Source of the DNA: Gammaproteobacteria bacterium | GTDB lineage: Bacteria; Pseudomonadota; Gammaproteobacteria; Pseudomonadales; CAMLJR01 | Assembly (NCBI GenBank): GCA_029265075.1 | Contig: JAJUJZ010000020.1 | Coordinates: 1 to 32,879, forward strand | Direction of reading: 5' to 3' | DNA length: 32,879 bases | Program-made: the position numbers and the translations under genes | The notes under the pieces: model-generated | Seen by the model: the letters and a program-made list of their open reading frames with translations, nothing else | What the model was told of the DNA's origin: nothing | Database searches by the model: none | Shown here: positions 8,148 to 24,569 of the stretch, piece after piece | Position numbering within the stretch: the stretch's first letter is position 1 | Layout of the letters: each line of letters starts with the position of its first letter

Positions 8148-9002
8148 TCAGCGCGCCTGCCGCACCGCGTGCCACGTGACCAGCCGGCGCCCGGCGCTTT
8201 CGCTCGACTGGGCGTATCCTTCCATCCGGTCGCCCGTTACCCTGCCGTTGAGGATGTAGCGGGCGTCGCCGGCATCCATCTGCAGCTCCAGGCGTTCGCC
8301 GCGCAGCAGGACACGCTCCACACGCAGCAGCTTGTCGTCCGGTGTCAGACGGCCATTCACGCGCTGGAAGCGCTGACTGAGCTCCAGCGTGAAGCGCTCT
8401 TCGCCGACCACGAGTTCCCAGTTGCCGGCCACGTCTGCCGGTACGATCCAGAGATAAAGCTCAGGGCCAGCCACGGATGTGATCTGCTCATCGGGCAGCC
8501 ACTCGCCCATATCGAACGCGCTGGAGACGACCCGCGTCCCCGGCGCCAGCTGCTTGAGCAGCAGCGGTCGCAGGCGCAGGTTGGCTTCAGGCATCAGGTA
8601 GAGCGCGACGACCGAAGCGTGGGCCAGATCGGCCTGGTAGAGATCTCCTTCCAGGAACAGCGTGCGATCGCTGACGCCGGCCGCCGCGGCGCGGGTGCGC
8701 GCGGCTGCAACCAGCTCTGGTTCCAGTTCGACGCCATGCGCCAGCACACCACGGCGGGCGGCTTCAATAACGATGGGGCCGTTGCCCGCACCGAGATCGA
8801 TCAGATAGTCGCCGGGCGCCAGCCGGGCCAGCGCCAGCAGCTCCTGGATCAGTCGCTGGTCACTCTCGACATAGGGTGCCACCGCGCCGGCCGAGGGCGT
8901 GATCGTGCCGGCAGTCTGTGCTGTAACTGGCACTGCGGCTGCCAGCAGCAGTGGCCCGAGCAGGGGCAGCAGCGGCCGGAGGAAGGCGGTAGCACGGGTC
9001 AT
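8148..9002 (-). CDS. Class I SAM-dependent methyltransferase-fold protein with export signal
   Basis: The 284-residue product starts with a signal-like segment: MTRATAFLRP, a leucine/alanine core at about residues 10-25, and VTAQTAG as a probable cleavage site. A Rossmann methyltransferase domain follows, with motif I DLGAGNGPIVIEAARRG (from residue 69) and an acidic residue after the second strand in HGVELEPELV. The last 80 residues are strand-rich with no assigned function. The ATG at 9002 is chosen because GAGGAG stands five bases before it; an in-frame ATG at 9089 would add 29 residues without such a site. A methyltransferase outside the cytoplasm would lack its usual cofactor supply, so either the segment is a membrane anchor or the domain has another role. 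The substrate is unknown. Confidence 0.75.
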   Translation of the reverse strand: MTRATAFLRPLLPLLGPLLLAAAVPVTAQTAGTITPSAGAVAPYVESDQRLIQELLALARLAPGDYLIDLGAGNGPIVIEAARRGVLAHGVELEPELVAAARTRAAAAGVSDRTLFLEGDLYQADLAHASVVALYLMPEANLRLRPLLLKQLAPGTRVVSSAFDMGEWLPDEQITSVAGPELYLWIVPADVAGNWELVVGEERFTLELSQRFQRVNGRLTPDDKLLRVERVLLRGERLELQMDAGDARYILNGRVTGDRMEGYAQSSESAGRRLVTWHAVRQAR

Positions 9003-22252: not shown

Positions 22253-23692
22253 CTATTTCGGATCTGCCGCCGAAAGTGGCCGTGCAACCTGTTCCAGTGG
22301 CTTGCGTTCCGCAGCGTAACCAAGCCACAGCTCGACGATTGCAGCAACCAGCATCAGCACCGCGCCGAATACATAGCCCCCGCTGATCGCGCTGCGCTCG
22401 CCCGTGCCGATCAGCGCTCCGAATACCAGTGGTCCGGCAACGCCGCCGAGGCCAGTCCCCAGTGCGTAGAACAGCGCGATGGCGAGCGCGCGCACCTCCA
22501 GCGGGAAGCTCTCTGCCACCACCAGATAGGCGGAGCTGGCCGCTGCCGAGGCGAAGAAAAAAACCACGCTCCACGCAAGGGTCTGGCCGACGACATCGAG
22601 CACGCCATAGTTGAACAGCAGTGCAGTAATCAGCAGCAACAGGCCAGAAGTCGCATAGGTCGAGGCGATCATCGGGCGGCGCCCGATGGTATCGAACAGC
22701 GGCCCCAGCAACAGTGGTCCGAGAAAATTGCCAAGCGCAAACGGCAGCAGAAACAGACCGACGCGATCAGCCGCGATGCCGAAAAAGTGGCTCAGTACCA
22801 GCGCATACGTAAAGAAAATGGCGTTGTAGAAAAACGCCTGTGAAGACATCAGCACAACACCGAGTACAGCCCGGCGCGGATAGAGCCTGAACAGCGCCTG
22901 CATCAGACTGACCGGGCCGATAACATCGCGGCGCACATGCAGCCGCACTGTGGGCAGCTCTGCCGCTGGTGCTGAATGGGCGCGTGATTCGATGGCCCGC
23001 ATGATGGCTTCTGCCTCGATCAGCCGGCCATGCATCATCAGCCAGCGCGGACTCTCCGGAATCCAGCGCCGCAGCAGCAGGATGATAACGCCCAGCATGG
23101 CACCGATCAGAAAGCAGGCGCGCCAGCCCCAGTCCGGTGGCAGCACACCGGGTGCCAGCAGGACAACTGAACCAAGGGCGCCGAACGCAGCACCGATCCA
23201 GAAACTACCGTTGACCAGCAGATCGATGCGGCCACGGTAACGCGCGGGAATCAGCTCCTGGATGGCCGAGTTGATGGCCGTGTATTCGCCGCCGATGCCG
23301 GCGCCGGTCAGAAAACGAAAGAAGGCAAACCAGTAGAATTTGGGTGCGAAGGCGCAGGCGGCAGTCGCGAGCAAGTACAGGGCCAGCGTGACCCAGAACA
23401 TTTTTTTGCGGCCAAGCAGGTCCGTCAGCCAGCCAAAAACGAACGCGCCTATGACAGCGCCCGCCAGATAGGCGCTGGCGGCAGTGCCGATCTGCAATTC
23501 GGTGAGCCGTAGCACCGGGCTCTGCTGCAGCGCGCTGGCGACCGCGCCGGCCAGTGTCACCTCCAGCCCGTCGAGAATCCAGGTAATGCCGAGGGCGGCG
23601 ATGACCAGGGTATGAAAGCGACACCATGGCAGCCGGTCGAGCCGTGCGGGGATATCAGTCTCGATAACGGGGCCGGGTAAGATGGGCTTCAC
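22253..23692 (-). CDS. MFS transporter (metabolite/sugar-porter type)
   Basis: This is a 479-residue inner-membrane secondary transporter with about 12 predicted helices. The first helix contains LGITWILDGLEVTLAGAV, the loop between helices 2 and 3 has the MFS motif GWLTDLLGRKKMF, and helices 4-5 carry FRFLTGAGIGGEYTAINSAI and ELIPARYRGR. These resemble the NiaP/SV2-like metabolite:H+ symporter branch. In the second half, GPLFDTIGRRPMI repeats the motif. GTG at 23692 is chosen because AAGGAG lies five bases before it; an ATG at 23857 would add 55 residues overlapping the divergent remnant gene. The substrate is not deducible; aromatic or carboxylic acids are common for this branch. Confidence 0.85.
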   Translation of the reverse strand: MKPILPGPVIETDIPARLDRLPWCRFHTLVIAALGITWILDGLEVTLAGAVASALQQSPVLRLTELQIGTAASAYLAGAVIGAFVFGWLTDLLGRKKMFWVTLALYLLATAACAFAPKFYWFAFFRFLTGAGIGGEYTAINSAIQELIPARYRGRIDLLVNGSFWIGAAFGALGSVVLLAPGVLPPDWGWRACFLIGAMLGVIILLLRRWIPESPRWLMMHGRLIEAEAIMRAIESRAHSAPAAELPTVRLHVRRDVIGPVSLMQALFRLYPRRAVLGVVLMSSQAFFYNAIFFTYALVLSHFFGIAADRVGLFLLPFALGNFLGPLLLGPLFDTIGRRPMIASTYATSGLLLLITALLFNYGVLDVVGQTLAWSVVFFFASAAASSAYLVVAESFPLEVRALAIALFYALGTGLGGVAGPLVFGALIGTGERSAISGGYVFGAVLMLVAAIVELWLGYAAERKPLEQVARPLSAADPK

Positions 23693-23770
23693 GATCACTC
23701 CTTGCTGGTCGGCGTGAACCGGCAACGGAGGCTGTGACCGCAATCGGATCTGATCGGTCGGGGAGAAGCG

Positions 23771-23972
23771 ATGCCAGAGCGGTTTATCCAACGGAACAGC
23801 AGTCGCTATGCCGATGCACTGCTGGCAGAAGCACAGGGGCTGGCGGCGCTGCGGCAAACGCCCGATCTACAACCTCTGCCACTACCTCAACCACTACAAC
23901 CTGTTCGGCAACAGCTATCTCGACGGCTATGAGGCGGGGTTGCGCGGGATCGAGCGCATCGCGGCCCGGTAA
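23771..23972 (+). pseudogene. Fructosamine kinase family gene remnant with internal deletion
   Basis: A good ribosome site (GGGAGAAGCG) leads into ATG 23771 and a peptide ending RYADALLAEAQGLAALR, which looks like the early part of fructosamine/ketosamine-3-kinase proteins (FVK.N....MF.AEA.GLAAL). At about 23850 the match moves to another frame, which reads PIYNLCHYLNHYNLFGNSYL and then DGYEAGLRGIERIAAR to a TAA at 23970-23972. That is the C-terminal signature of the same family (Y.LYH.LNH.NLFG..Y). The two ends together are about 67 codons where the family has about 290, and they are out of frame by one base. The simplest reading is loss of the middle, about 220 codons. Identification is from remembered family patterns. 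Confidence 0.65.
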
Positions 23973-23985
23973 CGGTCCCCTCGCC

Positions 23986-24534
23986 TCACCACATGAGATC
24001 GTCGGGAATCTGGTAAGCGGCGTATGGATCGTCTTCATCCATCGCATCGGCCGGCGCCGTCCGGTCGCGGCTGACGATCACATAGTCCGGGTCGCGCTGC
24101 TGAATTTTTTCGGCCACGACCTTAGGCACCACTTCGTATTTTTCATCCAGCCTGACGATGGCAAGCTTACCGCTGCCGAGCTGGTCCAGCATGGCGGCGG
24201 TGACATAGATCTTCTTGATCCGGGTGCCGTCGGTGAAATTGTAAGCGACCTCGCCGCGGGAGCGGTCGATTCGGCTGTTCTCGATCAGCTGTCTGATCTG
24301 CGCGACGATGGCGCGTTCCTGCGCCTGTCGATCGCGTTCCGCATTGAGCTGGCGGTCGCGCTCCGCCTTCTCCTCAAGGGCACGGCGCGCGTTCTCCTTC
24401 GCTTCGTCCACCGTCTCGATGCGGTGCTTGCGCTGATAATTCTCCTGCTTGCGCTTCTCTTTGGTAATCGCCTTCGCCTTGTTGCGATCGATCAGTCCGG
24501 CCTTCATCAGCTGGTCCTGCAGCGAATTCGCCAT
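23986..24534 (-). CDS. DUF2058 family protein (YaiL-like)
   Basis: The 182-residue cytoplasmic protein opens MANSLQDQLMKAGLIDRNKA followed by a highly charged lysine/arginine/glutamate-rich helix of about 70 residues that is likely a coiled coil. It ends with a compact strand-rich domain (VAYNFTDGTRIKKIYVT and GKLAIVRLDEKYEVVP) and an acidic tail. This order is characteristic of DUF2058, whose E. coli member YaiL has been listed as a nucleoprotein; its function is not firmly known. ATG 24534 is preceded by AGGAG at seven bases; a longer open frame upstream lies in the neighbouring gene. It lies 35 bases after the methyltransferase gene and may be cotranscribed. Confidence 0.9.
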   Translation of the reverse strand: MANSLQDQLMKAGLIDRNKAKAITKEKRKQENYQRKHRIETVDEAKENARRALEEKAERDRQLNAERDRQAQERAIVAQIRQLIENSRIDRSRGEVAYNFTDGTRIKKIYVTAAMLDQLGSGKLAIVRLDEKYEVVPKVVAEKIQQRDPDYVIVSRDRTAPADAMDEDDPYAAYQIPDDLMW

Positions 24535-24569
24535 ATTGTGTCTCCTGAATGCAAATCTCTGGTATGGGT

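Follow-up and report, generated by a model that had tools for sequence, protein, structure and literature searches.

The window analysed here, a stretch of 32 879 nucleotides, carries at positions 23771–23972 of the forward strand the relic of a fructosamine-kinase-family gene (PF03881), about 200 bases long, in which two gene ends are still readable. They represent 28 codons from the beginning and 38 from the end of a family gene, offset by one frame. We hold with high confidence that the relic is a deletion pseudogene of a short-form (~250-residue) gene of the fructosamine/ribulosamine-3-kinase family, produced by one internal deletion. Bacterial deletion pseudogenes keep start and stop around an internal deletion with a frame offset and show point decay; the relic has the same traits throughout, with no difference of substance. 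With its middle three quarters gone, it is ordinary in kind as a dead gene and represents one gene loss caught midway, with start and stop still in place.

Structure of the relic

The 5′ end of the relic (23771–23854, forward strand) comprises the start codon and 28 codons, recognized by a profile of relatives and by tblastn to a family gene of another genome of the order (G007). Its ATG at 23771 is preceded by GGGGAGAAGCG; by direct reading, a ribosome-binding-like stretch lies in front of the start (23759–23770, same strand). The N-terminal frame reads MPERFIQRNSSRYADALLAEAQGLAALR, in which the F-x-K-x-N strand of the family appears as F-I-Q-R-N. The 3′ end (23856–23972, forward strand) comprises 38 codons with LNHYNLFG, the C-terminal signature of the family, followed by the stop codon TAA at 23970–23972, and is recognized by PF03881, by a profile of relatives and by DNA identity. 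Its frame, which reads KRPIYNLCHYLNHYNLFGNSYLDGYEAGLRGIERIAAR, lies one base out from the ATG frame. The latter is 53 codons long, and both fragments are free of internal stops when read in their respective frames. The first-pass annotation had described a ribosome site with an ATG, two retained ends and an offset of one frame between them, and all of this is borne out by the sequence.

At the junction (23854–23856, forward strand), the N-side and C-side homologies meet within about one base and the frame shifts by one. The last strongly conserved N-side column is L at 23849–23851 (18 of 19 intact relatives), followed by R at 23852–23854 (8 of 19); the first C-side column is K at 23856–23858, conserved in all 19. 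The 10 bases across the junction occur exactly once in the window, and occurrences with one mismatch are at chance level (6 against 5.88 expected).

Both ends belong to the kinase family

The C-terminal fragment matched PF03881 with 25.4 bits (E 9.8e-6; profile positions 254–282 of 288; cut-off 22.4 bits). In a genome-wide frame scan with the same profile, this stretch scored 21.8 bits, just below the cut-off. The N-terminal fragment alone gave no match in Pfam. By tblastn, however, the N end aligned to the start of the intact family gene in G007 (38% over 52, E 6.9e-6, the alignment extending beyond the junction), and the C end aligned to that gene's end (58% over 38, E 2.4e-10).

From a search of 390 genomes in the order with the G007 protein, we examined the best 30 loci. 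The 19 best matches (L114–L132), all of the short form, were used for the counts and for a profile of each end; three genes of a longer form (L133–L135) were read but excluded from the counts, and the remaining loci (L136–L143) received a rough motif check only. The search space for the profiles was the window's 907 stop-to-stop frames of at least 15 residues. The relic ranked first with the N-end profile (E 3.5e-10; next frame 0.93) and also with the C-end profile (E 2.7e-16; next frame 6.2). The relatives' own profiles thus recognize both ends of the scrap, where Pfam detects one end only. At the DNA level, the C end was up to 89% identical to intact genes over 44–45 bases, in two genomes. 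The whole relic DNA was matched only by its own genome among the 390; the remaining genomes gave C-end homology or short chance pieces.

The failure of the N fragment to match Pfam on its own might suggest that the resemblance to the family is fortuitous. Two independent profile matches in the correct order and on the correct strand, adjoining a start and a stop, make this explanation practically negligible. The assignment of both fragments to the kinase family, made in the first-pass annotation from the letters alone, therefore stands after searches with each fragment in its own frame.

Size and content of the missing middle

Counting from the last aligned position of the N end up to the conserved C-end K, the relic lacks 186–192 codons relative to the 19 intact relatives (189 in 13 of the 19 comparisons). 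The loss of the middle is thus confirmed, but not the earlier estimate of about 220 codons: the nearest relatives are of the ~250-residue short form (246–254 residues counted from the F-x-K-x-N strand), and the figure of 220 fits the longer form of the family. A single internal deletion of about 560–575 bases would have brought the final 38 codons up against codon 28 in a differing frame, and the one-frame offset would give the deletion a length of 3k+2 bases. The ribosome-binding stretch, start and stop are still in place.

The missing part includes the catalytic motifs HGDLWxGN and IDPA, which are located there and kept in 19 of 19 intact relatives. HGDLWxGN and DPA were absent from all three forward frames over 23771–23972. 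In human FN3K, the variants D217N and D234N are inactive (PMC11754801); by our own mapping, these residues would be the D of HGDLW and the D of DPA. Judged by its motifs, the relic copy cannot phosphorylate sugar adducts. Translation of the ATG frame, should it occur, would yield 53 residues that include no catalytic motif.

The intact ribosome-binding stretch, start and stop, together with open frames in both fragments, could also be read as a new functional small protein, either the 53-residue peptide of the ATG frame or a frameshifted product of 66 residues. Every catalytic motif is lost, however, and the relic's own genome is the only one among the 390 of the order to match the relic DNA as a whole; we regard such a protein as extremely unlikely.

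Decay of the surviving ends

Of 16 aligned columns without variation among the 19 relatives, three are changed in the relic (K to Q, Y to C and C to Y). The first of these is the conserved lysine of the F-x-K-x-N strand, present in all 19 relatives and replaced in the F-I-Q-R-N of the relic. Human FN3K has a conserved nucleotide-phosphate-binding lysine at position 41 (PMC11754801), to which the lost residue would correspond by position. In a leave-one-out control, 16 of the 19 relatives departed at no invariant column and one departed at 1 of 17, while L128 and L131 departed at 2 of 18 and 4 of 20 columns, respectively, by milder changes. Given these two values, the divergence count of the relic is not unique. 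The kind of residue change nevertheless speaks for lost constraint and counts against a mere assembly collapse. The ends would be free of selection now, or may have been so already before the deletion.

A collapse of this sort, in which assembly of a fragmented genome lost the central part of a living gene, has to be considered for a draft of 214 contigs with 89.89% completeness. It would not yield three altered residues in ends that are otherwise invariant at these positions, and the junction lies within a 32.9-kb contig, between intact genes. We consider an assembly artefact very unlikely, and a deletion pseudogene remains our reading of the relic.

Relation to short-form relatives and known enzymes

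Over aligned columns, the N end of the relic is 54–58% identical to the intact short-form proteins L128 (G325) and L129 (G269), and its C end is 66–75% identical to intact short-form proteins such as L128, L129 and L114, the G007 protein. Unlike the relic, these proteins keep the 186–192 middle codons, HGDLWxGN, IDPA and, at the invariant columns, K, Y and C. An intact short-form relative matched the structure 6oid (E 1.1e-39), and 9cx8 and 3jr1 were also matched. The C-terminal signature YHYLNHYNLFG is shared by 6oid. All three structures are protein-ribulosamine/fructosamine-3-kinases of full length with a P-loop (for the human enzyme, PMC11754801), whereas the relic is without P-loop and catalytic core.

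The relatives L114–L132 seem to be a short form without the glycine-rich P-loop of known fructosamine kinases, since their proteins start directly at the F-x-K-x-N strand; HGDLWxGN and IDPA are kept in 19 of 19. We consider it about an even chance that the relic comes from a distinct P-loop-less clade of probably active kinases which retain the catalytic loop, and that the window's lineage is among those in which this clade is disappearing. Neither for the relic nor for the P-loop-less form did we find a literature title or abstract opening. The apparent P-loop-less short form is a more interesting lead than the relic.

Three side observations concern the beginning of the short-form genes. In four of four proteins scanned, the PF03881 match begins at profile position 42–44. 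Fewer than 18 open codons precede the F-x-K-x-N strand in 9 of the 19 genes. A GG[DEGS] motif in the open frame upstream is absent from 18 of the 19; L130 has one, in an upstream run of 248 codons.

Distribution of the gene and the question of lost function

A PF03881 scan of the relic's own genome (214 contigs, 89.9% complete) found no intact family copy over the cut-off elsewhere. The sole same-genus genome compared, G001, gave no family member in either the PF03881 scan or the search with the G007 protein. That search matched 124 of the 390 genomes of the order (E ≤ 0.001); the matches were weak or partial in six of them (the relic's own genome, G113, G251, G320, G331 and G348), and the other 118 had E values of 1.8e-19 or lower. 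In this order, the gene is therefore typically patchy in its distribution, and absence is common. In a sample of 37 genomes, 12 had a match over the PF03881 cut-off, eight of them above 100 bits and the rest weak. The partial match in G113 was considered as a second relic and rejected: it lies at 8490–8567 of an 8585-base contig, and is explained by assembly truncation because the contig ends there.

Judging from homologues, the product of the intact gene would act on sugar adducts of protein amines or lysines, which are released once phosphorylated. Bacterial homologues are reportedly, to judge by the title of Gemayel 2007 (cited in PMC13223202), mostly ribulosamine/erythrulosamine kinases. 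Ribulosamines are substrates of both human enzymes and fructosamines of FN3K only (PMC13223202). A ribulosamine is thus the more likely substrate of the intact gene, and 'loss of fructosamine repair' is the less likely wording. The analysis of the relic thereby revises the probable substrate class as well as the size of the loss.

The further suggestion that protein repair may have been lost in this lineage is borne out only in part. The gene is also absent from G001. The relic's own assembly, however, is 89.9% complete, and bacterial members of the family are said to act mainly on ribulosamines and erythrulosamines, so 'loss of protein repair' overstates the case. The relic by itself is no proof that the lineage cannot deglycate proteins.

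Genomic neighbourhood

The relic lies between two intact genes, both on the reverse strand. Divergent from it is an MFS/sugar-transporter gene (22253–23692; PF00083, E 6.5e-44) with a GTG start at 23692 behind AAGGAG; the first-pass annotation had rightly called it functional-looking, and it may have been acquired. Convergent with the relic is a DUF2058 gene (23986–24537; PF09831, E 3.5e-66), which ends 13 bases past the relic stop.

No match to the relic was found at 80 loci of the MFS gene. A match to the DUF2058 gene was present in 26 genomes, among which we examined 20 loci, the window's own included; at the 19 others, no kinase gene was found within 1.5-kb flanks or to the contig end. Conversely, within 1.5 kb of intact kinase genes (19 of the short and 3 of the long form, 22 in all), none of the window's neighbour genes occurred apart from a weak AraC match, nor did DUF2058 occur in larger flanks around 10 intact genes. 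Because these searches found no intact orthologous locus, the ends of the deletion are not readable from one, and the deletion itself is deduced from genes in other families of the order.

In G001, a DbpA-like helicase gene holds the convergent place beside DUF2058 that the relic holds in the window. Both G325 and G231 have an intact short-form kinase gene with a DbpA-like gene downstream of it in the same orientation. The original arrangement may conceivably have been kinase – DbpA – DUF2058. The best DbpA-like matches in the relic's own genome are 38–42% identical and look like paralogues.

Among the matches listed, the nearest relative of the MFS gene was from Dokdonella (73%), and many others were from alpha- and betaproteobacteria; the same-genus genome gave matches of 23–31% only.
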